A stretch of DNA of 64,000 bases from Gordonia alkanivorans NBRC 16433. Lineage in GTDB: Bacteria; Actinomycetota; Actinomycetes; Mycobacteriales; Mycobacteriaceae. Below the pieces are notes generated by a model, which saw nothing but the letters and a program-made list of their open reading frames with translations, was not told the origin of the DNA and did no database searches. Location of the stretch: positions 1 through 64,000 of the forward strand of contig NZ_BACI01000056.1 in NCBI RefSeq assembly GCF_000225505.1. The letters run 5' to 3'. The translations under genes and the position numbers were made by a program. Of this stretch, positions 20 to 9,883 are shown one piece after another (positions within the stretch are counted from its first letter, which is position 1; each line of letters starts with the position of its first letter).

Positions 20-47
20 CTGGCGGTGGCGGAGGGATTTGAACCCT
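20..47. repeat. attL: 28-bp direct repeat of the tRNA-Ser 3' end
   Basis: This 28-bp stretch is identical to 9792-9819. It contains the complement of the encoded CCA, the acceptor 3' strand and most of the T arm of tRNA-Ser(CGA), but no other tRNA part. It is therefore the duplicated attachment core at the far end of the element. The heptamer AATCGAT occurs on both sides of it (1-7 and 48-54), which may be chance. Confidence 0.88.
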
Positions 48-131
48 AATCGATCCACCAGTTCAGACCCCGAAACTGGCTCTCACCAGGCTTTACAGGT
101 CATGCTATGTCACCGCAAATCAATGCGAATC

Positions 132-159
132 GTGGGCAAGTGTGGGCAGAAGGTGGGCA
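132..159. promoter_or_regulatory. Left integrase arm-type sites (3 x GTGGGCA)
   Basis: GTGGGCA occurs at 132-138, 142-148 and 153-159, start to start 10 and 11 bp, about one helical turn. The same heptamer occurs twice near the right end (9705-9711, 9716-9722). Short direct repeats inside both ends of an integrated element are typical arm-type binding sites of tyrosine integrases. The assignment is inferred from placement and phasing. Confidence 0.55.
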
Positions 160-169
160 CGCTCGCCTG

Positions 170-490
170 TCAGCCGGCATTGTCCCCGCTTCCATCAAGG
201 GGCAGGCCGAGCTGGTGGCGCGCACGGATCAGGAGGCGGCGTTCGACGTAGTCCTCGTGGTCGTCAGGTGTCACATAACCGTTCGGGTACTGCAGCACGA
301 TCGGGACTCCCGGAGCAATCCACAACGCGATCTGCGTGTCGTCGCCACCACCGCCGATCCGATACAGATGGCTGCCGCCGAGCCGGTCCAGCCCGTCGAT
401 GATGTCTTCGATCTCCTCGAGTGCCCGGAGCGGAAGCGTGTACAGCTGGCCCGCGTAGTGCACATTCCCGTGAGTTAGGTCGCTCGCCAT
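170..490 (-). CDS. Hypothetical protein, last gene of the satellite
   Basis: This 106-residue acidic protein starts MASDLTHGNVHYAGQL and has no signal peptide or membrane segment. The ATG at 488-490 is preceded by a strong GGAGGAG ribosome site. It has a compact pattern (LRALEEIEDIIDGLDRLGG, then a stretch rich in hydrophobics and Pro/Gly) that I cannot assign to a family. It is the most distal gene of the leftward array, about 120 bp from attL and separated from the HNH gene by about 300 bp, so it may be a cargo gene or an element-end function. No function is claimed. Confidence 0.7.
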   Translation of the reverse strand: MASDLTHGNVHYAGQLYTLPLRALEEIEDIIDGLDRLGGSHLYRIGGGGDDTQIALWIAPGVPIVLQYPNGYVTPDDHEDYVERRLLIRARHQLGLPLDGSGDNAG

Positions 491-786
491 TCGTGTCTCC
501 TCCAGTTGGTGTGAATCGACGCACCGCGAGGTTATCGGGACGCAACGACATCGACCGAGCAATGCTCATATGCGCGGTGCGATATCGTCCCCGAGTTCCC
601 ACCACTCCGATACGCCGAAAACCGTTGCGATGCAACCCGATTGCCGCACTCAAAAGCCCTGCAGGGCAACATGATTCACCAGCATGAGCCTGGTCGCCCC
701 GTTCGCTCGAGCCCGCCGTAAAAAAACTCCTAACTACCTCGGCAGTCAGGGACCCCGGGGGGGTCGGATATTTCGGGCCGGGGGTC
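491..786. other. Non-coding gap inside the satellite
   Basis: About 296 bp between the HNH gene and the last leftward gene. I see no credible gene on either strand. The part near 505-640 is less GC-rich than its surroundings, and a C/G run lies near 750-760. It may hold a promoter for the distal gene or a packaging site; neither is demonstrated. Confidence 0.4.
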
Positions 787-1131
787 CTACCAGGGCCAGT
801 TCATGATGCGGAGGTCTTCGGGTTCGTCGGTGGCGGGTGGTGTGGAGTGTCCGGTGAGTGCGGGTCTGAGGTGGTCGCGGGTGCCGTTGCCGCGTTCGCG
901 GTTGCAGGTCATGTGGAGGAGGCGGTCGGCGGTGCGGCCGCCTTGGCTGCGGGCGATGGTGTGGTCGGCTTCGAGGGGTGCGTGGTCGAAGTTGTCGTCG
1001 GGTTGTCGGTACATGGGGCGATCGCACCACCAGCAGGGTGTTCCGTTGCGGTGGCGGTTGAGCAGGCGGGTGCGGGTCTGTTGGTGGTGCCAGCCGAGGC
1101 CGCGGCTGGTGGTGGTTTGGCGTCTGGTCAT
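787..1131 (-). CDS. HNH endonuclease
   Basis: A 114-residue protein of the phage HNH family. Visible are a CxxC pair (CWWCDRPM, about residues 34-41), the core DH motif in PLEADHTIARSQGG (about 57-70) and a following asparagine-containing stretch (MTCNRERG), giving a His-Asn metal site with a zinc-knuckle frame. The ATG at 1129-1131 follows AAGGGA; an in-frame extension to 1254 is possible but has no good ribosome site. In many actinophages an HNH protein near the packaging and capsid genes assists terminase-dependent cleavage. Here it sits just after the capsid and scaffold-like genes, although no large terminase is present, so a role with a helper phage's terminase is conceivable but inferred. 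Confidence 0.85.
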   Translation of the reverse strand: MTRRQTTTSRGLGWHHQQTRTRLLNRHRNGTPCWWCDRPMYRQPDDNFDHAPLEADHTIARSQGGRTADRLLHMTCNRERGNGTRDHLRPALTGHSTPPATDEPEDLRIMNWPW

Positions 1132-1162
1132 TGCGTGTCCCTTCGCGTGTGGTGTGACGACG

Positions 1163-1206
1163 GAGACCCCCGGTGGTCCGCTGGAGCACGGGTTGCCGGG
1201 GGTCTC
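1163..1206 (-). terminator. GC-rich hairpin between scaffold-like and HNH genes
   Basis: A perfect 11-bp inverted repeat (GAGACCCCCGG at 1163-1173, its complement at 1196-1206) with a 22-bp loop lies downstream of the capsid block in the leftward direction. There is no following T-run, so it may be a weak terminator, an mRNA-stabilising stem or a processing site that sets the dose of the genes beyond it. Confidence 0.45.
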
Positions 1207-1383
1207 GTCTTCGGTGGTAAGGGGTGGTGGTGTGCGGTGCTGGCCCCGGTCCATTGGGGTCCGGTCGTCGCTGGCCAGGTCTGCCGCGCCGGCCGCTCAC
1301 TGGAGGAGCGAGTGGTTCGGCCGGGTAACCTCCGCCCCTTTTCTCCCTCCCCGCGGGGTGGGTACCTCGTGGGGCCACCGAGG

Positions 1384-1935
1384 TCAGCGGAACCAGGTGC
1401 TACCGGGTTCGGAGTTGCTGAGGTCTTGGTTGTCGACGCCGTGGCCGATCTCTTTCATGGGGATGGCTGTCTCGTCGGGGATCTTGGCGAGCACGGTTTC
1501 CATGCCGGGGTCGTGTTCGAGGAGGGTGCGCCAGTGGTCGGAGCGGCCTCGGGTGATTGCACCGCGTTTGATCGCGGCGAGGATGACCTGTTCGCGGTGT
1601 TGTTCGGCGGCGGCGAGCTTGACCTGTGCGCCTTCGGCGGCGGCCGTCTTGAGGGCGTCGGCGGTGGCCTCGTCCATGACGACGAGTCCTCGGCGTCCTG
1701 CTGCGGCTGCGATCGCTGCGGGTGCGCCGTCGGTGGCGGCTTCGTCGGTGACGAGGTCGGTGACGGTGGTCAGGACGGTGTCGAAGGTGGCGTCGGAGGT
1801 GAGTCCGAGTGCACCGAGGAGGGATGCCCACTCTTCGCCGTCGATCTCTGGCGGGTCGACGGGTTCGACGGCCTGATCGGCCGGCGGTGGGGTGGCCGGC
1901 GCGGCGGCTTTGCGGGTCTTGGTCTTGGGAGCCAT
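1384..1935 (-). CDS. Scaffold-like phage protein (resembles the C-terminal part of Mu-I-type proteases)
   Basis: A 183-residue protein with a Pro/Ala-rich start and an Ala/Gln/Glu-rich predicted helical middle, ending in a pattern (AIKRGAITRGRSDHWRTLL, then IPMKEIGHG) that I recognise from the C-terminal scaffold portion of Mu-I-like prohead proteases. The ATG at 1933-1935 has an AAGGAG site. It lies directly after the major capsid gene (10-bp gap). In Mu-like phages the protease carries this scaffold region at its own C-terminus; here the protease gene (3257-3925) ends early, so the scaffold function appears to be on a separate gene downstream of the capsid. The role is inferred from motif and position. 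Confidence 0.6.
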   Translation of the reverse strand: MAPKTKTRKAAAPATPPPADQAVEPVDPPEIDGEEWASLLGALGLTSDATFDTVLTTVTDLVTDEAATDGAPAAIAAAAGRRGLVVMDEATADALKTAAAEGAQVKLAAAEQHREQVILAAIKRGAITRGRSDHWRTLLEHDPGMETVLAKIPDETAIPMKEIGHGVDNQDLSNSEPGSTWFR

Positions 1936-1945
1936 GCTCGTCTCC

Positions 1946-2851
1946 TTACGGGGTGGCGGTGCCGGTGATGCGGCGGGCGGCGCGCGCGAAGTTGGGTGCG
2001 AACGCCGGGACCGCGAACACCTGGATGGTGACGGTTCGGTTGATCTCGTTCTGGATGATGCGAGTGGTCAGCGGCTCTTCGAATTGGATGACGCCGCACT
2101 CTCCGGCCTGGACGACGAGCGCGGTGCCGGGGGTGGCTCGCGGGTTGCTGACCATGGTGAGTCCGAACGATGCGAGGACATCAGTCAGGTCGGAGCCGTA
2201 CACGGTGCGAAGCACAGCGGCCTGCTCGGGATGCACGATGAGGGTGTCGCCGATGACACCGAGCTCGTCCAGCTCGAAGGACATGAGCGCCTTCGCGAAC
2301 GACGCGGTGGGCCGGCTGATCGGGTCGGTGGGCGTCGCGCCGTCGAGCTGCACTGTGTCCCATGCGGCGTTGGCGAGGACGTCGAGCTCCGACCCGATGC
2401 GCGTCATCTCTGTGTTCAGAGTCTCGAACGCCCGGCGGTCGAGTTTCATCGCGACGTCGTTGGCGAGCTGGGTGACGCACTGATCGAGGAAGGGCAGGTC
2501 GTTGCGTTTGATCGCCTCTTCGGGAATCTCCTGTGTCCCGCCGTAGTCCTCGACCTTTGACAGCTGAGGCTCCGGCGAGACGGCCTGGAGTTGCGGGTAC
2601 TCGGCTCCGGGGCTGCGTGGGCCGATGTCGCCGGATGCGAACTGGTCGGCCTTCTGCAGGGAGGCCCACAGGACGCCGCCACCGACGACCGGCTGGCCGA
2701 TGGTGTGGAACAGCCACGGCGCGATGAGCTGCTTGTCGGTGAGTTGCGCAACCCGGGCGGTGATTCGGGTCGGGTTCTTCAGGAACGCGTCGACAGTGAG
2801 GCTCGAACCGGTCAGGGTCGGCAGGAGCATGGATGTGGTGGGCGTGGGCAC
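1946..2851 (-). CDS. Phage major capsid protein (HK97-fold type)
   Basis: A 301-residue protein. The GTG start (2849-2851) is chosen over longer frames because an AAGGAG site lies just upstream. Features seen: an N-terminal arm, QEIPEEAIKRNDLPFLDQC followed by a long helix as in HK97 capsid spine regions, and a C-terminal half with VVQAGECGVIQFEEPLTTR and NEINRTVTIQVFAVPAFAPN typical of actinophage capsid proteins. Length fits a mature-size subunit. It sits between the decoration-protein and scaffold-like genes. A full-length intact capsid gene in an element lacking portal and tail genes suggests it makes its own, possibly small, procapsid and takes the rest from a helper. Confidence 0.85.
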   Translation of the reverse strand: MPTPTTSMLLPTLTGSSLTVDAFLKNPTRITARVAQLTDKQLIAPWLFHTIGQPVVGGGVLWASLQKADQFASGDIGPRSPGAEYPQLQAVSPEPQLSKVEDYGGTQEIPEEAIKRNDLPFLDQCVTQLANDVAMKLDRRAFETLNTEMTRIGSELDVLANAAWDTVQLDGATPTDPISRPTASFAKALMSFELDELGVIGDTLIVHPEQAAVLRTVYGSDLTDVLASFGLTMVSNPRATPGTALVVQAGECGVIQFEEPLTTRIIQNEINRTVTIQVFAVPAFAPNFARAARRITGTATP

Positions 2852-2864
2852 GGGTGGTCTCCTT

Positions 2865-3242
2865 CTAGAGCTGGACTTCGACGAGGCCGCCGCTGGCGGC
2901 GCCGGTGAGGGCGTAGCCGACGACCGGATTGGCGCCGGCCGGGACGACGACACCACCGGCGCCGGCGGCGACGCGGGTGCCGGCGGTGATGGTGGCACCG
3001 GCGACGACGCGGACGATGCCGGTGCAGGCGATGGCGACAAGGTCACCCGCGGCCGGCGCGTCGGCCCAGGCGACACCGAGGACGGTCGGCGCGGACGCGG
3101 ACGCGTGTTCGGCGACGAGCGCACCTGGTGCGCTGGTGGCGTCGACGACGACGAGGTGCCCGGCGTCGATGGGGGTCTTCGCGGTGACGGTGACGTTGTC
3201 GCCGTTGGCGTACGCGCGCGGCGTGTACTGGACAGTTCCCAC
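2865..3242 (-). CDS. Capsid decoration/cement protein (DUF2190-like)
   Basis: A 125-residue protein dominated by beta-prone Gly/Ala/Val/Thr repeats (for example ATITAGTRVAAGAGGVV and NPVVGYALTGA), the pattern of DUF2190-type capsid cement proteins that stabilise expanded heads. The GTG start at 3240-3242 follows an AGGAG site. It lies between the protease and the capsid genes, the usual order protease, decoration, capsid. Family assignment rests on pattern and context. Confidence 0.75.
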   Translation of the reverse strand: MGTVQYTPRAYANGDNVTVTAKTPIDAGHLVVVDATSAPGALVAEHASASAPTVLGVAWADAPAAGDLVAIACTGIVRVVAGATITAGTRVAAGAGGVVVPAGANPVVGYALTGAASGGLVEVQL

Positions 3243-3256
3243 TGTGTTCTCCTGTG

Positions 3257-3925
3257 CTAGATGATGTTTCGGGCTCTGCGAGTGCGGCGAGCTTTAGCGG
3301 CGGTGACGGCCGATTGAGCGGTGCGGGTGCCGCGGGAGGCGGCGACGAACTCGCGGAGTTCGGCGAGGTTGCCGATCGCGGGTGCGGTGGCGCCGAGCAG
3401 CGCGAGCCCGGTCAGCACGAACGGCCAGACGCGGCCGTCGGCGTCGGTGTAGCCGACGACGCCTTCGAGGCTGCGGTTCGGCCAGCTCGTCGGCATCGCG
3501 TCGGCGAGCCAGCGCGGCACACCGGCGAGGTCTCCGACGAGGACCGGGCCGTTGACGCGGAGGTGGTCGACCCACCCGACCGAGGGGGCGCCGTCGAACC
3601 GGGGGTCTTCGTGTCCGAGTTTCAGGACCGGGCGGTGGATGACGCCGGCGGCGAGTGCTGCGACCGCGGAGGCGAAGTCGTCGGCGGTGAAAGTGGCTGG
3701 GCCGGTGGACGCTTCGAATGATCCGACGCGCGCGACCTCGACACTCGGGATGGTGACGCGTTCAGCCGGCGCGGCGTTCGGCGCGTGCGACGACGTCGGC
3801 AGCGGCCACGACCCACCGGCCGTTGAGCTGATAGGCGGTGAGCTGACCGCGTCGAATGAGCTGGCGAACACCCGCAGGGGTGATGCCGAGGAGTTGCCCG
3901 GCTTCGCGTGTGTCGACGAGGTCAT
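3257..3925 (-). CDS. Prohead protease, Mu-I-like, N-terminal catalytic part
   Basis: The recognisable part begins VGSFEASTGPATFTADDFAS and runs through RPVLKLGHEDPRF, VGWVDHL, a GDL segment, a central WPNRSLEGVV segment and ALTGLALLG-like sequence, as in Mu-I-type phage proteases that mature the scaffold. The family's C-terminal scaffold region is absent here; see 1384-1935. The start is odd: the conserved domain begins near 3735 but the frame has no ATG, GTG or TTG until a GTG at 3871 and an ATG at 3925 (GAGGAG lies about 13 nt upstream), so the gene overlaps the HTH gene by 100-165 bp out of frame. I give the 3925 start; a non-canonical start or a frameshift from the upstream gene is possible. 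Confidence 0.7.
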   Translation of the reverse strand: MTSSTHAKPGNSSASPLRVFASSFDAVSSPPISSTAGGSWPLPTSSHAPNAAPAERVTIPSVEVARVGSFEASTGPATFTADDFASAVAALAAGVIHRPVLKLGHEDPRFDGAPSVGWVDHLRVNGPVLVGDLAGVPRWLADAMPTSWPNRSLEGVVGYTDADGRVWPFVLTGLALLGATAPAIGNLAELREFVAASRGTRTAQSAVTAAKARRTRRARNII

Positions 3926-4154
3926 GCACCGAAGGTGGCTCCTCGACGACCTCCCCTGACGCGTCTGTGGCGTCTGCGGAACGGTTGTGTTCGGCCAAAC
4001 TGGATGCGACGGAACGGATAAGGCGGATGAACGACTCTGCGGCCGGTGACGGGGTCCATCCGCCGGCCGCGCACCTCCGCACCAGCGAGAACAGGAGCGC
4101 GTCGAGGAATGCGACTTCGTTCGGGTCGAGCTGCAGGCCGTCGGGGCGTCTCAT
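3762..4154 (-). CDS. Small HTH DNA-binding protein beside the head genes
   Basis: A 130-residue protein starting at the ATG 4152-4154, with a 4-bp ATGA overlap with the gene before it. The N-terminal half (LDPNEVAFLDALLFSLVRRC) is helical; the C-terminal ~50 residues are a MerR/excisionase-type helix-turn-helix (DTREAGQLLGITPAGVRQLI, then RRGQLTAYQLNGRWVVAAAD, ending in RAERRAG). Position directly before the head protease is where small terminases usually sit. It could be a packaging-specificity protein or a late regulator; both are inference. Confidence 0.7.
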   Translation of the reverse strand: MRRPDGLQLDPNEVAFLDALLFSLVRRCAAGGWTPSPAAESFIRLIRSVASSLAEHNRSADATDASGEVVEEPPSVHDLVDTREAGQLLGITPAGVRQLIRRGQLTAYQLNGRWVVAAADVVARAERRAG

Positions 4155-4438
4155 CGGTCGTCGACAGCCCCGGAGGTGACGGCCAGGAAGTCGAGCAACG
4201 CGGTCGGGGTGTCGTCCGGTGCTACCGGTAGTCGGCCCCAGGCCCACGCCATCGCGGCAACGGCGACGTAGGGGTCGGTGTCCTCGAGGGCGTTGACGAA
4301 GTCGCCGAGGGCGGCGGTTCGGCCGGCGACGTCCCTCGCGTGGGTGTGGACGGCCAGTTGGGCGGCTGCACGTTGGGCGCGAATCTCGGCGCGCGTCACC
4401 GCGGCGGGTCGTTCGATGGGCGGTTCGTGAGCGGTCAT
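4151..4438 (-). CDS. Hypothetical satellite protein
   Basis: A 95-residue Ala-rich, mostly helical protein (MTAHEPPIERPAAVTRAEIR at the start). The ATG at 4436-4438 overlaps the stop of the WhiB-like gene by 4 bp, and its own stop overlaps the next ATG by 4 bp, so translation is probably coupled. No motif that I recognise. Confidence 0.7.
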   Translation of the reverse strand: MTAHEPPIERPAAVTRAEIRAQRAAAQLAVHTHARDVAGRTAALGDFVNALEDTDPYVAVAAMAWAWGRLPVAPDDTPTALLDFLAVTSGAVDDR

Positions 4439-4758
4439 CGTTCGGTGGTTCCTTTCTTGCGGCCGGGGAGGTTCGGGCGGCGTCCGCCGACGACCATCGC
4501 GGCGAGATGTCGGTCGGGTTGGTCGTTGATCCACGTGCGGCAGTCGGCCCGGACGGGACACCGACCGCAAACCGCGACCGCGCGCTCCTGGCGGGCCTTC
4601 GCCGCGTCGAAAGACTCGGTGCGCTCGCGCGGTAGCCAGCCATCGAACAGGCGCGGATCCGCATCGACACACGCCGCGCCGGACAGGTTCGGCTGACCGG
4701 CGAGGACCTCCGACAGAAGACTCACAACGCCGGGTTCCAAGGTCTTCGCGTGACTCAC
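4435..4758 (-). CDS. WhiB-family iron-sulfur regulator
   Basis: A 107-residue protein with the four WhiB cysteines: ACVDADPRLFDGW supplies the first, then VCGRCPVRADC supplies the CxxC and the fourth. The usual C-terminal G[VI]WGG turn is replaced by a shorter region (AAMVVGGRRPNLPGRKKG) with a basic tail. The GTG at 4756-4758 is preferred because AAAGGAG precedes it and it overlaps the ATPase stop by 4 bp. WhiB proteins bind a 4Fe-4S cluster and act with the housekeeping sigma factor; phage versions (for example TM4 WhiB) repress host whiB2-type genes. A role in host or helper transcription control is inferred. Confidence 0.88.
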   Translation of the reverse strand: MSHAKTLEPGVVSLLSEVLAGQPNLSGAACVDADPRLFDGWLPRERTESFDAAKARQERAVAVCGRCPVRADCRTWINDQPDRHLAAMVVGGRRPNLPGRKKGTTER

Positions 4759-6248
4759 GCTGTCTCCTTTCTGTGCGCACGGACACACTTCGATTTGCTG
4801 GTGTGGAAGCCGTCGCGGATGTCGTCGCCGTAGATCAGCTGCTCGTCACAGTGAGGGCACATGCGGATCTCGCCGCGCTTGGCGTCGCCGTTGTGGACCA
4901 CGCGCAACTGACGCTCGGCCTGGCGGTCGGGGGCACGGTGTGCGGGGTCTGCACAGTCTTCGCAGGCGTCGGTGGCGGCGGTCTGGGGCAGAGTGATGTT
5001 GCACATCCGGCAGGCGGTCGGGCGAGCGGTGACCGGCTCTGTACCGACACTGTTCTGGGGGTTGTCGCTACTGGGGTTTTCGCCAGTAGCGACAACAGTA
5101 GCGACATCGCGTATCCGCTGGTCAGGCCCAGTAGCGACAGTAGCGACACTCGCAGAGGTGATAGGGGTGTCGCTACTGTCGGCTGAGGGGGTCGTGTCGC
5201 TACTGATCACCTCGCCGTCGACAATGTCGACGAGCTTCCAGAACGCTTTCCGGGGGAAGCCCTTGGACACCGATACAACGCGCGAGCCCTTGGCCCGGAT
5301 CGACCGCTCGATCGTGCGGACGCTGGTGCACAGCTCCTTGACCCCGAGGCGCTTGATCGTCGCGGCGTCGGTCTCCCCGTTCTCCTCGAGGTAGTCCTCG
5401 ACCCACCGGAGCGCCGCGCTCCGGTCGTCCTGATCGTCGTCGGCGAGAGACGACCGACGTGCCTCATCGACGCTCGTTTCGACGTCGCCGGTGAACACGA
5501 CCCGCCCGACTTCGGTGATGGCGTGCTCGGGTAGCTCGATCGATTCGAACCGGTAGCCGATGGAGCGCGGCGCCGGCGAGAGGTTGCCCTTGACGTCGGA
5601 GATGACGCCCTCGGTCTCGGCGTCCTCGCGATGGAAGACGAGCACCTGACGCGGAACGTCGGTCCATTCCGATGCACCCTTCACCGAGTCGCGGGCCTTG
5701 CGCTCGGCATCCTTCCCCAGATGGGCGATACCGAGGACCACCGCGTTAAGACGGCCGGCCATACGCTGGATCGGCTCGAGGAACGCCCGCACGTCGTCAC
5801 CTGAGTTCGCGCTCATCCTCGACGACTTGAACGAGGTGAGCGCGTCGAAGACCAGGAACCGGCAACCCAGCTCGACAAGCCCCTCCTCGAGGCGGTCGAG
5901 GTCCCGGGGCAGTTGCAGGGAGGTCTCACTGAGTTCGCCGTCGTCCATGCGGATCCCGACGTCGAGAAACTTGACCAGGTCGATGTCGGCGTTGGCTGCG
6001 AGGAGCTTCGGCACGATGTGCATCGACCGGTCCTCTTCGGAGTGCAGCCAGGCGACGACCTCGCCGCGGTTGGTGGCCTCAGCCGCCCAGGCGGCGCAAG
6101 TGGTCGACTTGCCGGCGTTCCCGCGACCGGCGGCCACCGTGAGACAACCCCGCGGGATCAGGTGCCGCTCCCACCAGTCGACCTGTACCGGCGTCACCTC
6201 AGACCCACTGGTCCAGGTGAAGACCCGCGGGTCGGTGGGCTCGCTCAT
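4755..6248 (-). CDS. AAA+/RecA-fold replication ATPase (RepA/AAA_25-like) with zinc ribbons
   Basis: A 497-residue protein. Walker A is at about residues 38-47 (AAGRGNAGKSTT), Walker B near 135 (CRFLVFDALTS), followed by a RecA-like helicase core (VVLGIAHLGKDAERKARDSV, PRQVLVFHRED). A winged-helix-like segment follows at about 285-340, then a Ser/Thr/Pro-rich linker (about 348-396) encoded by the iteron cluster, and two CxxC pairs at the C-terminus (CRMC...CEDC and CPHC...C) that look like zinc ribbons. ATG at 6246-6248 has GAGGAG upstream. It resembles the RepA-type helicases of phages, plasmids and phiRv1-like elements. Iterons within its own gene suggest it is the initiator for the element's replication. 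Confidence 0.8.
   Translation of the reverse strand: MSEPTDPRVFTWTSGSEVTPVQVDWWERHLIPRGCLTVAAGRGNAGKSTTCAAWAAEATNRGEVVAWLHSEEDRSMHIVPKLLAANADIDLVKFLDVGIRMDDGELSETSLQLPRDLDRLEEGLVELGCRFLVFDALTSFKSSRMSANSGDDVRAFLEPIQRMAGRLNAVVLGIAHLGKDAERKARDSVKGASEWTDVPRQVLVFHREDAETEGVISDVKGNLSPAPRSIGYRFESIELPEHAITEVGRVVFTGDVETSVDEARRSSLADDDQDDRSAALRWVEDYLEENGETDAATIKRLGVKELCTSVRTIERSIRAKGSRVVSVSKGFPRKAFWKLVDIVDGEVISSDTTPSADSSDTPITSASVATVATGPDQRIRDVATVVATGENPSSDNPQNSVGTEPVTARPTACRMCNITLPQTAATDACEDCADPAHRAPDRQAERQLRVVHNGDAKRGEIRMCPHCDEQLIYGDDIRDGFHTSKSKCVRAHRKETA
5061..5205. repeat. Seven-copy 11-bp iteron cluster, candidate replication origin
   Basis: CAGTAGCGACA or its exact complement occurs seven times in 145 bp: complement orientation near 5062-5072, 5168-5178 and 5195-5205; direct orientation at 5084-5094, 5096-5106, 5129-5139 and 5138-5148. 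The first two copies form a perfect 14-bp inverted repeat (5061-5074 and 5083-5096) around an 8-bp loop. The cluster lies inside the 3' third of the AAA+ ATPase gene, in a linker-coding region. Multiple identical iterons next to or within a rep gene are the hallmark of initiator-bound origins (plasmids, SaPI-type islands). Function is inferred; the repeats themselves are directly visible. Confidence 0.8.
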
Positions 6249-6571
6249 GCAGTTCTCCTCGGTATGTGCGCACCGGTGCGCAGGGCAATGTCTCTGTTTC
6301 TGATGCGACGGGCGACTGCAGTCCAGTCGGCCGCCTCGACCACTTCGACGGCCGCGGCCTTCTCGGCGTCACGACTCGCGTGCAGTTGCGCGATCTCTTC
6401 CTCGAGGCACCACCGAGACCCGGCGATGAGCAGCGCGGTGATCTTGGCGGGGTCGTTGTCGTCGAGCGCACACCACTCCGGGGTGCCGGCGACGATTGTG
6501 GTGGTGCGGCCACCCAGGACCCGGCCCACGAAGGCGTGGACCGGATCCCAGGTGACGGCGTACTCGGACAC
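6245..6571 (-). CDS. Phage protein, possibly DUF2742
   Basis: A 108-residue protein from a GTG start (6569-6571), immediately after the stop of the gene before it, and overlapping the ATPase start by 4 bp. The motif PEWCALDDNDPAKITALLIAG resembles DUF2742 proteins of mycobacteriophages and phiRv elements; I give that only as a resemblance. The second half is a charged helix (EEIAQLHASRDAEKAA). It is likely an accessory replication or early function because it is coupled to the ATPase. Confidence 0.65.
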   Translation of the reverse strand: MSEYAVTWDPVHAFVGRVLGGRTTTIVAGTPEWCALDDNDPAKITALLIAGSRWCLEEEIAQLHASRDAEKAAAVEVVEAADWTAVARRIRNRDIALRTGAHIPRRTA

Positions 6572-7135
6572 CTACGGAGTCACCGCCAGGTCACATGCAG
6601 CGGTGATGACCTCCGCGAGACGTCGCGCCTCGTCGAGCGTCATGTTCGTTCCGTGCCAGGTCCACTCGCCGTCGATGATCTTGCAAAGCGTGATCCCGAC
6701 CAGGTCGTCGCCCAACCCCGAACGTTTGGCCGCCACCTCGAACCGTGACGGCAGAGTCGATCCATCACGGTGCTCGCTGAACAAGTTGTGCGCCAACGGA
6801 ATCGCGACCGACTCCGACCGATAGGCGGACGCCCACACTGCCTTGCGGATGGAGTCACGTTCGACGGGCGCCCACGAGGGACGCGGGATCGGTGACAGCT
6901 TCGTCAGATCGTCGTCGGGGTCCACATACAGCTGGGCTTCGCTGCGCTGCACGAGGTCCTGCCACGCGACCGATGTCGGGTCGCTGCCGCACCGGGCGTG
7001 CTCACGGTTCCACTGCTCGACTGTCTCGGCGACATCCGGCCCGTCCAGGCCGAGGACCTGCACCTCCGCGCCGCACTCCTCGCATGTGAGGACCGACGAC
7101 GCATGTGTGGCCTTAGGCAGAGGGATTGCGCTCAC
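6572..7135 (-). CDS. Hypothetical satellite protein with one N-terminal CxxC pair
   Basis: A 187-residue protein from a GTG start with a GGGGG-rich region upstream and a 4-bp GTGA overlap with the preceding gene. Near residues 18-21 is LTCEECGAE, a zinc-ribbon-like pair, with a further Cys at about residue 49 (HARCGSD). The rest is mixed alpha/beta without a motif I recognise. Its place in the early, excisionase-to-ATPase stretch suggests a DNA-related role, but no function is claimed. Confidence 0.7.
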   Translation of the reverse strand: MSAIPLPKATHASSVLTCEECGAEVQVLGLDGPDVAETVEQWNREHARCGSDPTSVAWQDLVQRSEAQLYVDPDDDLTKLSPIPRPSWAPVERDSIRKAVWASAYRSESVAIPLAHNLFSEHRDGSTLPSRFEVAAKRSGLGDDLVGITLCKIIDGEWTWHGTNMTLDEARRLAEVITAACDLAVTP

Positions 7136-7347
7136 CGCACACCCCCGATTGTCTGCGCGGTGATGCGCTTTTCGTCGACGTCGCCGATAAGGTCAGCCAG
7201 GTCGAGCAGATCGCTGATGTCCTCGGGCTCGATGACGCCCAGGGCCTCGTGGAGCAGGTCGACGATGAGGTCGTCGTCTTCGGCCAGCGGGGTGATCATC
7301 GGACCGACAGGGACTGTGGCCTGTCGGCGTCGGGGTGTACGGTTCAT
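7132..7347 (-). CDS. Small acidic hypothetical protein
   Basis: A 71-residue protein: a basic N-terminus (MNRTPRRRQATV) then a strongly acidic helical region (IVDLLHEALGVIEPEDISDL). ATG at 7345-7347 with AGAGGAG upstream; stop overlaps the next GTG by 4 bp. Small acidic early proteins of phages often mimic DNA or bind host factors; here that is only a possibility. Confidence 0.65.
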   Translation of the reverse strand: MNRTPRRRQATVPVGPMITPLAEDDDLIVDLLHEALGVIEPEDISDLLDLADLIGDVDEKRITAQTIGGVR

Positions 7348-7348
7348 A

Positions 7349-7795
7349 TCAGTTCTCCTCTTTGGTGGGGGTAGGAACTTCGCCCTCGGACGGTGTTGGC
7401 GCACCGCCGGGGCCTTTCTTCTGTCCGAGCTGTGTTGCCCGGAGGTCTTCGGTGAGCGCGTCGGCTCGGTCTTCGAGGTCGTGGATGAAGTGCGCGAGGT
7501 TGTCCCGGGTCTGGCCCTCGGTGAGGCCCTCCCATACCCGCCAGTTGTGAGCGATCCGCTGCTCGAGACGCTCGAGCGCTTCGGTACGGATGAGGTCTTC
7601 GCCCGAGCAGCGACCGGCCTCGATCGCATCGAACATGCCGCCGAGGTCCATCCCGCTCGGGTCGTCCAGCTCGATGTTCGACGAGTCGACAGGCGTCGGT
7701 TCGATCCGCTCCGACGGTCGGGTGAAGCGCCGCATCCCGGGCTCTTCGGCCCCGAGGCCGAGGTCTCCGTGCGATTCGAGATCGGCGTACCGCAT
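7349..7795 (-). CDS. Hypothetical satellite protein
   Basis: A 148-residue charged, helical protein (coiled-coil-like stretch ALERLEQRIAHNWRVWEGL, then HDLEDRADALTEDLRATQ) ending in a Pro/Gly/Lys-rich tail. The ATG at 7793-7795 shares one base with the stop of the excisionase gene (TGATG), showing tight coupling. No family recognised. Confidence 0.7.
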   Translation of the reverse strand: MRYADLESHGDLGLGAEEPGMRRFTRPSERIEPTPVDSSNIELDDPSGMDLGGMFDAIEAGRCSGEDLIRTEALERLEQRIAHNWRVWEGLTEGQTRDNLAHFIHDLEDRADALTEDLRATQLGQKKGPGGAPTPSEGEVPTPTKEEN

Positions 7796-7986
7796 CACGC
7801 CGCACCCGGATTCACGGTGTTCGCCGCGAGGTAGGCGTCGACGTCGGCCCATCTGTAGAGGACCTTGCGGCCATGCTTGGTGTACGGGAGTCCACGGCCG
7901 AGGTAACGGTCTTGGGCGAGAGCGGCGGCGGTGGTGTGTAGATAGTCAGCGACCTCGCTCGGCGTCGCGAGTTCGTGTTCGGGCAT
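7795..7986 (-). CDS. xis: Excisionase / MerR-type HTH protein
   Basis: A 63-residue protein with the classic excisionase winged HTH: TPSEVADYLHTTAAALAQDR, then a wing ending in YRWADVDAYLAAN. First gene of the leftward transcript, back to back with the repressor gene. In related elements such a protein bends DNA at the arm sites to drive excision and can also repress its own promoter. ATG at 7984-7986. Confidence 0.82.
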   Translation of the reverse strand: MPEHELATPSEVADYLHTTAAALAQDRYLGRGLPYTKHGRKVLYRWADVDAYLAANTVNPGAA

Positions 7987-8015
7987 TCTCTCTCGATTCG
8001 TTGTTGTGGTTTCCT

Positions 8016-8069
8016 ACCCAAGGTGTTTGGGTTATGTTCAATCAGTACAGCACACCTCGACTGTTGACA
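8016..8069. promoter_or_regulatory. Divergent control region with operator palindrome and a -35-like box
   Basis: The 106-bp gap between xis (left) and the repressor (right) contains the palindrome ACCCAA-N5-TTGGGT (8016-8032), a likely operator overlapping the leftward promoter, and TTGACA at 8064-8069, a good -35 for the rightward promoter whose -10 would fall just before the repressor ATG at 8093. This is the lysogeny-type switch of the element. Assignment of which protein binds is inferred. Confidence 0.5.
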
Positions 8070-8092
8070 AGTGCCGAACTACTGTTTCGATC

Positions 8093-8605
8093 ATGGCAAC
8101 AAGACGAGTCGAGATAGGTCCCACCGGAGACACCGTTCGACGGAACATCGCCCGGACACGTCAAGATCAGCGACTCACGCTCCGGCAGTTGGCGGACCTG
8201 CTCGCAGAAACGGACAGGCCGATGAGCTACACCACGCTCAGTCAGATCGAGAACGGAGCGCGTCGTGTCGACGTCGATGACTTGATGAGCCTTGCTGTGG
8301 CGCTGAATGTTTCACCGATTGTCCTGCTGACCGATAGGACGAAGAGCGGCAGCGAGACCGTAACGGCAACCGGGCTCGGGGACGTCGAGGCCCGGGACCT
8401 CTGGGACTGGTTGCGCGCCGAGCGGTTCCCCATCACGAAACGGCTCGCCGAATCTCCGGTCGCCGATCCCGATGCGGACCTGGGGTGGATCCTCGGCCGG
8501 CCGAATTGGGTGAACGGCATCGCGGATCAGGCTCAGATCGACGAGATTCGCAATCTCTCGCACCAGTTGCAGCGAATCGTGAGGCGCTTCGATGGCGACG
8601 ATTAG
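8093..8605 (+). CDS. XRE-family repressor (immunity repressor-like)
   Basis: A 170-residue protein with a Cro/cI-type HTH in the first ~75 residues (TLRQLADLLAETDRPMSYTT, LSQIENGARRVDVDDLM). The rest carries no LexA-type protease motif, so induction is unlikely to be by RecA-stimulated self-cleavage; derepression by a helper factor, as in phage-inducible islands, is a possible alternative (inference). The start at 8093 lies after the shared control region. Its 3' end overlaps the integrase start by 14 bp. Confidence 0.82.
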   Translation: MATRRVEIGPTGDTVRRNIARTRQDQRLTLRQLADLLAETDRPMSYTTLSQIENGARRVDVDDLMSLAVALNVSPIVLLTDRTKSGSETVTATGLGDVEARDLWDWLRAERFPITKRLAESPVADPDADLGWILGRPNWVNGIADQAQIDEIRNLSHQLQRIVRRFDGDD

Positions 8606-9749
8606 CGCGTACTCGACGAAGTCTGGCCGGCGGTACCGAGTCCGGTACCGAACGCCGGACCATCGGCAGACCGACAAGCGTGGGTTCACGACGAAGCGTG
8701 AGGCGGAGGCGTTCGCCGCGACCGTCGAGGTGCAGAAGCTCACCGGGAACTACATCGCGCCTACTCTCGGGCGGATCACGGTCGCCGAGTTGGCGCCGGA
8801 CTGGTTGCGCCGCAAGGAATCCGATGTCGCACCGTCGAACTACCGAACCCTTGAGTCAGCGTGGCGTATTCACGTCGAGCCGAAGTGGGGGCATCGTCGC
8901 GTCGCCGACGTCGAGCTGGGCGAGGTCGAGCGGTGGATCGCTGAGATGGGCCGCACGGTGACCGATCGTGACGGCACGGTGATCACAAAGGGGGCCGGCG
9001 CCACCACGGTCCTGCGGGCGTACGGCGTGCTGGCCGGGGTCCTGGACGACGCGGTGAAGTCGCGGCGCCTCGCCGCCAACCCTGCGCGCGGTGTCGAGAA
9101 TCTGCCGAAGAAGGACCGCAAACGGCACGTGTACCTCTCGGCCGCCGATGTCGACCGACTGGCGACGGAGGCGAAGACGAACCGGGTCCTGGTGCTCGTG
9201 CTCGCCTACTGCGGTCTGCGGTGGGGTGAGCTGGTCGCGCTACGGGTCCGCGACGTCGAGTTCCTACGACGCCGGCTGACAGTCCACGACAACGCGGTTC
9301 AGCTCGGCGTCGACCACGCCGTCGGCCGCACGAAGTCGCGCAAGACCCGATCGGTGCCGGTCCCCCAGTTCATCCTGGACGAGCTGTCGGCTCACTGCCG
9401 AGGGAAGGCCCTCGACGATCTGGTGTTCCCGGGTCCGGGTGGCGGCTACCTCGCGAGGCCGAAGTCGACCCGCGGTTGGTTCGCCGGCGCGGTGAAACGC
9501 GCGAAGGTCCAGACGATCACCCCGCACGACCTCCGGCACACGACGGCGAGCCTGGCGGTGTCGGCGGGCGTCAACGTCCTCGCGCTCGCTCGGATGCTCG
9601 GGCACACGTCGGCGAAGGTCACTCTCGACGTGTACGCCGATCTCTTCGACGACGACCTCGACGCCGTCGCGGTCACTCTCAATCAGCGGTACTCGCCGCA
9701 GAGTGTGGGCAAAGTGTGGGCAGACGGCACCTCGGACACCACGCCGTAG
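8592..9749 (+). CDS. int: Tyrosine site-specific integrase
   Basis: A 385-residue phage integrase that recombines the 28-bp attachment core. It has an N-terminal arm-binding domain (about 1-55), an SAM-like core-binding domain (about 60-165) and a catalytic domain with the first Arg in GLRWGELVALR (about 205), the HxxR box at His312/Arg315 (HDLRHT), the second box LGHTSAKVTLDVY and nucleophile Tyr348. It overlaps the repressor by 14 bp and lies 43 bp from attR. Two arm-type heptamers are inside its last codons. Confidence 0.95.
   Translation: MATISAYSTKSGRRYRVRYRTPDHRQTDKRGFTTKREAEAFAATVEVQKLTGNYIAPTLGRITVAELAPDWLRRKESDVAPSNYRTLESAWRIHVEPKWGHRRVADVELGEVERWIAEMGRTVTDRDGTVITKGAGATTVLRAYGVLAGVLDDAVKSRRLAANPARGVENLPKKDRKRHVYLSAADVDRLATEAKTNRVLVLVLAYCGLRWGELVALRVRDVEFLRRRLTVHDNAVQLGVDHAVGRTKSRKTRSVPVPQFILDELSAHCRGKALDDLVFPGPGGGYLARPKSTRGWFAGAVKRAKVQTITPHDLRHTTASLAVSAGVNVLALARMLGHTSAKVTLDVYADLFDDDLDAVAVTLNQRYSPQSVGKVWADGTSDTTP
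9705..9722. promoter_or_regulatory. Right integrase arm-type sites (2 x GTGGGCA)
   Basis: GTGGGCA at 9705-9711 and 9716-9722, 11 bp apart, within the C-terminal codons of the integrase. They match the three copies at 132-159 near the other end, which supports an arm-site role. Confidence 0.55.
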
Positions 9750-9756
9750 ACAGCAA

Positions 9757-9790
9757 AACACCCCCTCACCTGGAAAGATGAGGGGGTGTT
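9757..9790 (+). terminator. Bidirectional terminator after integrase
   Basis: A perfect 12-bp stem (AACACCCCCTCA and its complement) with a 10-bp loop, flanked by A-run on the left and TTT on the right. It ends integrase transcription and shields the tRNA-Ser gene beyond; it can also stop transcripts entering from the right. Confidence 0.85.
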
Positions 9791-9791
9791 T

Positions 9792-9819
9792 CTGGCGGTG
9801 GCGGAGGGATTTGAACCCT
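9792..9819. repeat. attR core inside tRNA-Ser(CGA)
   Basis: Identical over 28 bp to 20-47. It covers the encoded CCA, the acceptor 3' strand and part of the T arm, so integration restores a complete tRNA gene. Confidence 0.88.
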
Positions 9820-9883
9820 CGGTACGGGGTTACCGCACACAGCATTTCGAGTGCTGCACCTTCGGCCGCTCGGACACGCCACC
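9793..9883 (-). tRNA. serU: tRNA-Ser(CGA), with encoded CCA
   Basis: A class II tRNA: the 7-bp acceptor GGTGGCG pairs with CGCCACC, discriminator G and encoded CCA follow. The anticodon loop is CTCGAAA, anticodon CGA, and a long variable arm is present. It is the attachment site of the satellite. The gene symbol is by convention, not by comparison. Confidence 0.93.

Follow-up and report, generated by a model that had tools for sequence, protein, structure and literature searches.

A candidate cos-type phage satellite with its own head-shell genes in the tRNA-Ser(CGA) gene of Gordonia alkanivorans

Overall structure of the element

The integrated element of Gordonia alkanivorans NBRC 16433 analysed here lies at the start of a window of 64,000 nucleotides (contig NZ_BACI01000056.1, positions 1 to 64,000 of the forward strand) and occupies window positions 20–9819 (~9.8 kb). 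With a probability of roughly 0.64, the element is a cos (cohesive end site)-type phage satellite, which would make its own head shell and use the terminase, portal and tail of a helper phage. A satellite with its own shell and a borrowed motor and tail had been proposed in a sequence-only reading of this DNA, and the present analysis supported it, at the level of sequence, by the lack of a recognised portal or large terminase, by a cos site matching those of phages, and by a head cassette that recurred in 45 loci across Mycobacteriales genera. The cos site, the satellite family and a nested start of the protease gene all go beyond that earlier reading.

The element was flanked by 28-nt direct repeats at 20–47 and 9792–9819, and the second copy extended into the 3′ end of tRNA-Ser(CGA) (9793–9883). 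Both of the ends claimed earlier were thus borne out, and the element looked intact, as had also been held, with open genes and intact attachment (att) sites. The left flank comprised only 19 nt, and the window began at base 1 of the contig (C76). The DNA adjoining the tRNA in an empty relative (G018) was found at the start of another contig, C72; both contigs seem to be broken off within the terminator hairpin of the tRNA. DNA other than the element adjoined the tRNA in the relatives G018 and G021. No phage near-identical to the element was found in the search. The ends, the integration target, the predicted cos site and the head genes were as follows, in order of position, with open reading frame abbreviated to ORF, helix-turn-helix to HTH and major capsid protein to MCP.

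20–47, no strand: attL core of 28 nt, chromosomal copy, direct repeat of 9792–9819
704–784, minus strand: predicted cos site, predicted cut between 735 and 734 from the phage record ends
787–1131, minus strand: HNH endonuclease, ORF open to 1254 (phrog_1808, E = 9.3e-42)
1384–1935, minus strand: scaffold, downstream of the MCP gene (phrog_3894, positions 333–437 of 458; phrog_2976, E = 2.1e-20)
1946–2851, minus strand: MCP (PF25209, E = 6.6e-14; phrog_1650, E = 2.9e-45)
2865–3242, minus strand: cement/decoration protein (PF09956, E = 9.5e-9; phrog_673, E = 8.7e-17)
3257–3925, minus strand: head maturation protease half, predicted start ATG 3923–3925 nested in hth130 in the +1 frame (phrog_3894, E = 1.3e-52, positions 5–157 of 458)
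3762–4154, minus strand: hth130, HTH protein with a winged-HTH C-terminus, constant neighbour of the MCP gene in the satellite family (PF12728, E = 4.8e-8)
9792–9819, no strand: attR core, 3′ end of the restored tRNA, repeat partner of 20–47
9793–9883, minus strand: tRNA-Ser(CGA), the integration target (ARAGORN)

Head-shell genes

Family searches were performed with Pfam and PHROGs on 17 ORFs up to an E-value of 1, and with NCBIfam and PADLOC on 10 ORFs each up to 0.1. The protease, cement protein and MCP of the previously described head-shell set were recognised, whereas its "scaffold-like" gene was reinterpreted. In the Gordonia phage Schnabeltier, protease and scaffold form one 480-aa protein encoded upstream of the cement and MCP genes. 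By its sequence matches, the scaffold gene of the element is predicted to be the detached C-terminal half of such a fusion, and the upstream gene its N-terminal half. The HNH gene, for which the start at 1131 was preferred on account of its ribosome site, encoded a protein 50–59% identical to the HNH proteins of five Gordonia phages and belongs to the packaging plan.

No portal or large terminase family was found among the 17 ORFs up to E = 1 with Pfam and PHROGs, in agreement with the earlier statement that both were missing. A portal profile that detected portals in phage loci had no match in the element, connectors were likewise without a family in these scans, and a profile of Schnabeltier gene 8 matched phage loci and not the element. 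No small terminase subunit (TerS) of the Schnabeltier type was matched in the element. The remaining matches were weak or confined to a domain. Weak TerS matches ran through the HTH (E = 0.19 and 0.11); the HNH stretch also matched a TerS model (phrog_4581, E = 3.1e-20, positions 295–386 of 395), but the HNH family phrog_1808 was far stronger there. A 95-aa gene weakly matched a tail sheath (E = 0.21), and the cement protein an amidase model (E = 0.33). In the hth130 family, 18 of 21 members matched the TerS family phrog_57 at E ≤ 0.1 (0.11 for the window's own) and all 21 matched the excisionase family phrog_66, in both cases through the winged HTH.

An own MCP, head protease and HNH gene, which capsid-forming phage-inducible chromosomal islands (cf-PICIs) also have, were all present in the element. 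Such islands are, however, described in the available part of PMC10690885 as also encoding a portal, connectors and both terminase subunits, and portal, large terminase and connectors were unrecognised here. The element falls outside the cf-PICI definition, and its being a cf-PICI is the least probable of all the explanations considered.

A satellite family with a constant gene plan

Counting satellites and full prophages alike, relatives of the MCP occurred in genomes at the level of genus (12 of 59), family (62 of 401) and order (15 of 397), in 19 viral contigs, and in 19 loci of named Tsukamurella, Mycobacterium, Mycobacteroides, Mycolicibacterium, Williamsia, Gordonia and Rhodococcus genomes. 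Wider stretches (60) were taken for most, not all, of the family- and order-level matches. Once 10 duplicate loci and 10 fragmentary MCPs had been taken out, 100 loci remained for classification. The phage class (n = 47) had a portal or large terminase subunit (TerL). The satellite class (n = 45) lacked portal, TerL and tail genes over ~9.5 kb of the same strand, or to the contig limit, with at least 5 kb covered upstream. The remaining eight loci, of which six had short flanks and two carried tail genes only, were placed in neither class.

The two classes differed in gene plan. The hth130 gene was located within 1.7 kb upstream of the MCP gene in 45 of 45 satellite loci and in 0 of 47 phage loci, counts that measure presence and not independence, as the classifying profiles were built from these same sequences and related loci are not independent events. 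The scaffold gene lay downstream of the MCP gene in all 35 satellite loci where it was found (upstream in 0), and upstream in 47 of 47 phage loci. Integrase was present in 43 of the satellite loci, cement in 38, protease in 30 and HNH in 4. Protease and scaffold shared one frame in every phage locus with a protease found (31/31); among the 30 protease-bearing satellites they did so in two, L197 and L200, where the fused gene was downstream of the MCP gene. A quick MCP tree, with a support of 60, was compatible with a single origin of the satellites.

Several members departed from the common arrangement. Seven loci (L184, L186, L187, L192, L195, L197 and L200), mostly in small genomes (2.3–3.8 Mb), had a changed cassette order, with MCP before cement and protease sometimes after MCP; the HTH gene was still first and the scaffold last. 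Locus L199 (G263:C2:92000-111900) contained two nearly equal satellites in tandem, with MCP genes 9,257 nt apart and an HNH gene after each. In L118/L089 (Mycobacterium gordonae), a 1,221-aa gene between the satellite scaffold and a second integrase looked by eye like a tape measure gene, and is possibly part of an adjacent element. Downstream of the head cassette, L086, L087 and L088 carried what was judged by eye to be ESX/WXG100-like cargo, resembling the PEST systems in the available part of PMC10654092.

Identification of the cos site

When satellites were compared, a conserved non-coding block (704–784) was found directly after the HNH gene, and this block matched the joined genome ends of Schnabeltier. 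When window positions 690–790 were searched against 50,697 phage records, 21 records matched (17 Gordonia and 4 Mycobacterium), which represented 12 phages, some as GenBank and RefSeq copies; Schnabeltier was not among them. In all 21 records the match lay no more than 29 nt from the right end of a linear genome; the E-values ranged from 3e-6 to 3, and 12 were ≤ 0.006. The block aligned through the junctions of all six phages compared (Schnabeltier, Suerte, Sidious, Francois, Ruthy and BaxterFox) with 77–85% identity. HNH was the last gene displayed at the right end in Schnabeltier, Suerte, Sidious and BaxterFox, and was followed by one small gene in Francois and Ruthy. The genes for TerS, TerL, portal, protease, cement and MCP were near the left end in Suerte, Sidious, Francois, Ruthy and BaxterFox, with four genes before TerS in Francois. 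The block 704–784 is accordingly placed, as a prediction from these alignments, among phage-type cos sites.

A cos model built from the six phage ends only had the window as its best match (E = 5.4e-17 in 1.80 Mb), whereas the best match in a reversed-sequence control had an E-value of 1.3. At E ≤ 0.01, 14 of the satellite loci matched by this model had the match 0.9–3.3 kb downstream of the MCP gene. The same model matched 5 of 47 phage loci, all 4.5–6.5 kb upstream of the MCP gene, between HNH and TerS or TerL; HNH together with TerS or TerL was held by 18 of the 47. A satellite-seeded model found more loci, its seeds matching by construction. The exact cos core occurred once in the 5.07-Mb host genome, and with up to one mismatch 11 times, compared with 7 for the backward-read pattern. 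The 16-base core alone was not specific in IMG/VR, among the matches listed, and was not used as evidence.

Protease start within hth130

The start of the protease gene was analysed in 29 loci with a protease adjoining hth130, and 19 loci without an adjacent protease served for comparison. In 11 of the 29 the protease frame lacked a start codon near the start of homology, and all 11 were in the +1 frame relative to hth130; the other 18 had a start codon nearby. A programmed +1 frameshift from hth130 into protease was considered, since these 11 frames begin at the hth130 stop without a nearby start, and was set aside as the less probable reading, in favour of a nested start, on the following three observations. 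An ATG in the +1 frame was present at a fixed place, ~150–190 nt upstream of the hth130 stop, in 26 of 29 loci. The His or Tyr codon at this site ended in T in 26 of 26 cases, against 5.6 expected from each element's own codon usage (joint p ~1e-14 over 19 sequence clusters, with the highest chance taken per cluster). In 28 of 29 loci no stop codon interrupted the +1 frame before hth130 ended, against 14.6 expected.

The +2 frame was open in 2 of the 29 loci against 11.5 expected, partly because the same T creates a stop there. Among the 19 comparison loci the ATG was present in 5, and the +1 frame was open in 9 against 6.4 expected. In the window the nested ATG is located at 3923–3925, out of frame within hth130, and from these patterns translation of the protease probably begins inside hth130. 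Many other members had a separate protease start with the nested frame ending just beyond it, an arrangement that resembles translational coupling. A purine-rich stretch was located ~13 nt before the nested ATG of the window; since none was seen in most of the other loci displayed, expression from the nested start is probably low.

The conservation of the protease start, together with the cement and scaffold genes, across genera also bears on whether the element might be an ordinary cos satellite that is packaged into the heads of a helper and keeps the head cassette to interfere with that helper, not to build a particle of its own. A cos site alone could suffice for such packaging, but the conserved head genes argue against this explanation, which is very improbable.

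Transfer and selection

The element of the relative G009 was located in the same tRNA, and its integrase was 86% identical to that of the window. When the G009 element was compared with the sister element in G. aichiensis (G016), the two were 99.3–100% identical over the comparable 7.4 kb of ~10 kb, whereas the chromosomal flanks were 86.7% identical on the left (over 4.8 kb) and 89.2% on the right (over 370 bp). This comparison indicates that the ends and the integration/replication half of the sister element were recently transferred. Transfer was established for these parts and not for the shell genes, because the compared contigs did not cover the central part of the G016 copy with its MCP gene. 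The sole MCP found in G016 was of another type and on another contig. G016 seemingly holds parts of two satellites (L042/L043/L063); the cos-side sequence of L063 was 98% identical to the G009 element over 591 nt, and the assembly breaks nearby.

In seven pairs of relatives, the ratio of nonsynonymous to synonymous substitution rates (dN/dS) of the MCP was 0.06–0.24. The family is therefore under constraint; the evidence is weaker for the window's own branch, as the MCP value was 0.42 in the pair with L183.

That weak-looking constraint, and the homology of the head genes to those of full prophages in the genus, speak for a Schnabeltier-like prophage that decayed by losing its packaging, portal and tail genes. 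On the other side, the scaffold gene is relocated beyond the MCP gene and split from the protease, the cos site follows the head cassette, and a single deletion does not yield this gene order. Furthermore, one plan is repeated in 45 loci, the genes are open and the att sites intact, and the ends and replication half of the sister element have recently moved. Decay is judged slightly less probable even than packaging in helper heads with an interfering cassette.

Candidate helpers and capsid redirection

Judging by the cos site and head genes, the candidate helpers are Gordonia siphophages of the Schnabeltier, Suerte, Sidious and Francois kind. The host genome itself yielded nothing with a Schnabeltier TerL query, and the same query detected TerL in sister prophages. 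The other resident prophage (G000:C39; L084 and L085) had an SPP1-type portal.

Several observations weigh against a satellite with a self-made shell and such helpers. The host genome showed no resident helper carrying this cos. The TerL of the C39 prophage was only distantly like that of Gordonia phage GMA4 (27% identity), no capsid of this MCP family was found in the prophage, and neither cos model matched the 35 kb of it that was examined; on these three grounds C39 was rejected as a resident helper. The window MCP was 35% identical to that of Schnabeltier and 22–29% to those of four of the five other cos phages, and in the same comparison (E ≤ 1e-3) no MCP homologue was found in Ruthy. Portal compatibility with the cos phages is unproven on account of this low identity. 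The phage-only model detected cos in just 15 of the 45 satellite loci (E ≤ 0.01), and the ends of Mycobacterium phage Rem711 did not match the cos models (E = 2.8 with the satellite-seeded model, none with the phage-only model). No MCP of the G009 type was found in G016. The window/L183 pair was weakly constrained in hth130 (dN/dS 0.80) and cement (0.78) as well as in MCP. Finally, five members with the HTH and MCP genes only (L088, L122, L180, L189 and L206) fit a redirection of the helper capsid better than self-made shells.

Under such redirection, the main rival explanation, the satellite MCP would co-assemble with the helper capsid protein, Ccm-like at the pentamers, to give small heads on the helper portal, and protease, cement and scaffold would tune the process. 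A precedent is SaPIbov5, a Staphylococcus aureus pathogenicity island (SaPI), whose Ccm is homologous to capsid proteins and makes up the pentamers of small procapsids, the hexamers being formed by the helper protein (available part of PMC8569155). The five members named above had at least 5.6 kb of downstream sequence without protease, scaffold or cement (L088 belonging to the short-flank loci), and among the 45 satellite loci no protease was seen in 15 and no downstream scaffold in 10. Conversely, protease was kept in 30 of 45 loci, scaffold in 35 and cement in 38, and no protease had been identified in SaPIbov5 according to the same part of that paper. Redirection is considered unlikely, though clearly ahead of the other alternatives.

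Integration, regulation and replication genes

The remaining genes of the element were as follows.

170–490, minus strand: gene at the attL end, ORF open to 562 (no family match better than E = 0.04)
4151–4438, minus strand: 95-aa gene (homologue in G. aichiensis/G. otitidis elements)
4435–4788, minus strand: WhiB-like regulator (PF02467, E = 6.7e-7)
4755–6248, minus strand: replication ATPase, AAA_25 (PF13481, E = 5.4e-19; phrog_10729, E = 3.3e-16)
5063–5203, no strand: seven 9-mer iterons inside rep, candidate origin (repeat count)
6245–6571, minus strand: DUF2742 protein (PF10888, E = 5.3e-20)
6572–7135, minus strand: 187-aa gene with a weak zinc-ribbon/Lar-like stretch (phrog_599, E = 0.0066; TIGR03655, E = 0.0012, below cut-off)
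7132–7347, minus strand: 71-aa gene (no family matches)
7349–7852, minus strand: gene without an assigned role, 167 aa as called, may start at 7795 (phrog_28698, function unknown, E = 3.6e-4)
7795–7986, minus strand: Xis-like HTH protein (PF12728, E = 3.8e-5, below the Pfam cut-off; phrog_66, E = 0.0018)
8093–8605, plus strand: XRE-type regulator (PF01381, E = 8.7e-8; phrog_11503, E = 1.1e-13)
8592–9749, plus strand: tyrosine integrase (PF00589, E = 6.2e-20; phrog_1, E = 1e-71)

The integrase, excisionase, repressor and replication ATPase named in the sequence-only reading were all found with Pfam and PHROGs, the Xis-like HTH protein below the Pfam cut-off. The apparent origin corresponded to the seven copies of a 9-mer at 5063–5203 within rep, against 0.32 expected across the window.

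Proposed packaging mechanism

In the favoured satellite reading, a Gordonia siphophage that carries a similar cos would, on infecting the host, trigger excision of the element and its replication from the rep iterons. The satellite MCP, with its own separate scaffold and protease, would build a shell, probably small, round the portal of the helper. The helper TerS and TerL, with the HNH protein of either helper or satellite, would then cut the satellite cos and pump in one ~9.8-kb unit, and connectors and tail would be supplied by the helper. The hth130 protein may regulate the cassette or give a packaging preference, and the weak nested start would hold the protease dose low.

Comparison with known systems

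The element resembled phiRv1 and phiRv2 in size, as had been suggested earlier (9.8 kb against 9.3 and 10.8 kb, from the available part of PMC3986857). Both belong to the candidate Mycobacterium phage-inducible chromosomal islands (PICIs), which, in the part of PMC10654092 available, were defined by integrase and MCP, some carrying a terminase. They are thought to be mobilisable, and the link to inducing phages was undemonstrated in that 2023 paper. Like the element, these islands are small and have an integrase and an MCP, some being located in tRNA genes and some having replication and scaffold genes. The element has the integrase and MCP of this loose definition, but its host is a Gordonia. 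No mention of the cos site, relocated scaffold, constant HTH gene or absent portal was seen in the available part of that paper. As the element's cos matches that of named plaque-forming Gordonia phages, what moves these elements becomes a question of infection for this relative of the phiRv PICIs.

The cf-PICIs, which share an own MCP, protease and HNH gene with the element and add the portal, connector and terminase genes noted above, average 14 kb in size (available part of PMC10803314) compared with 9.8 kb. SaPIbov5 is likewise a cos-type satellite with a capsid-protein homologue, and its particles contain the portal and tail proteins of the helper (PMC8569155, in part). The element adds protease, cement, scaffold and HNH genes, and differs in capsid family and hosts. 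MulchRoom and MiniFlayer of Streptomyces are also actinobacterial satellites with capsid genes; unlike that of the element, their gene content includes portal, adapter and both subunits of the terminase, and their genomes are linear and end in direct terminal repeats (PMC10690885, in part).

The six cos phages share with the element the cos site and a nearby HNH gene, with homologues of the MCP in 5/6 and of the scaffold in 6/6 (E ≤ 1e-3). They differ in being full phages with protease and scaffold fused upstream of the MCP gene. The lack of hth130 within 1.7 kb upstream of MCP applies to the 47 phage loci, among which Schnabeltier is the only one of the six. Among literature searches on Gordonia and mycobacterial satellites with a capsid and without a portal, no paper with this plan was found; these searches left most subscription journals and all of bioRxiv outside their coverage, and the plan may be in print elsewhere.

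The "shell-only" satellites of Mycobacteriales probably represent a third packaging strategy, a proposal held a little less firmly than the reading of the element itself. They would bring MCP, separate scaffold, protease, cement and cos, and steal portal, terminase and tail. They would be marked by the relocated scaffold and the HTH gene overlapping the protease start, and their helpers would be readable from cos. If this is true, a satellite with a shell and no portal raises the question of how a foreign portal enters a satellite capsid, and such a shell would be a case between the remodelling by SaPIs and P4 and the independence of cf-PICIs.

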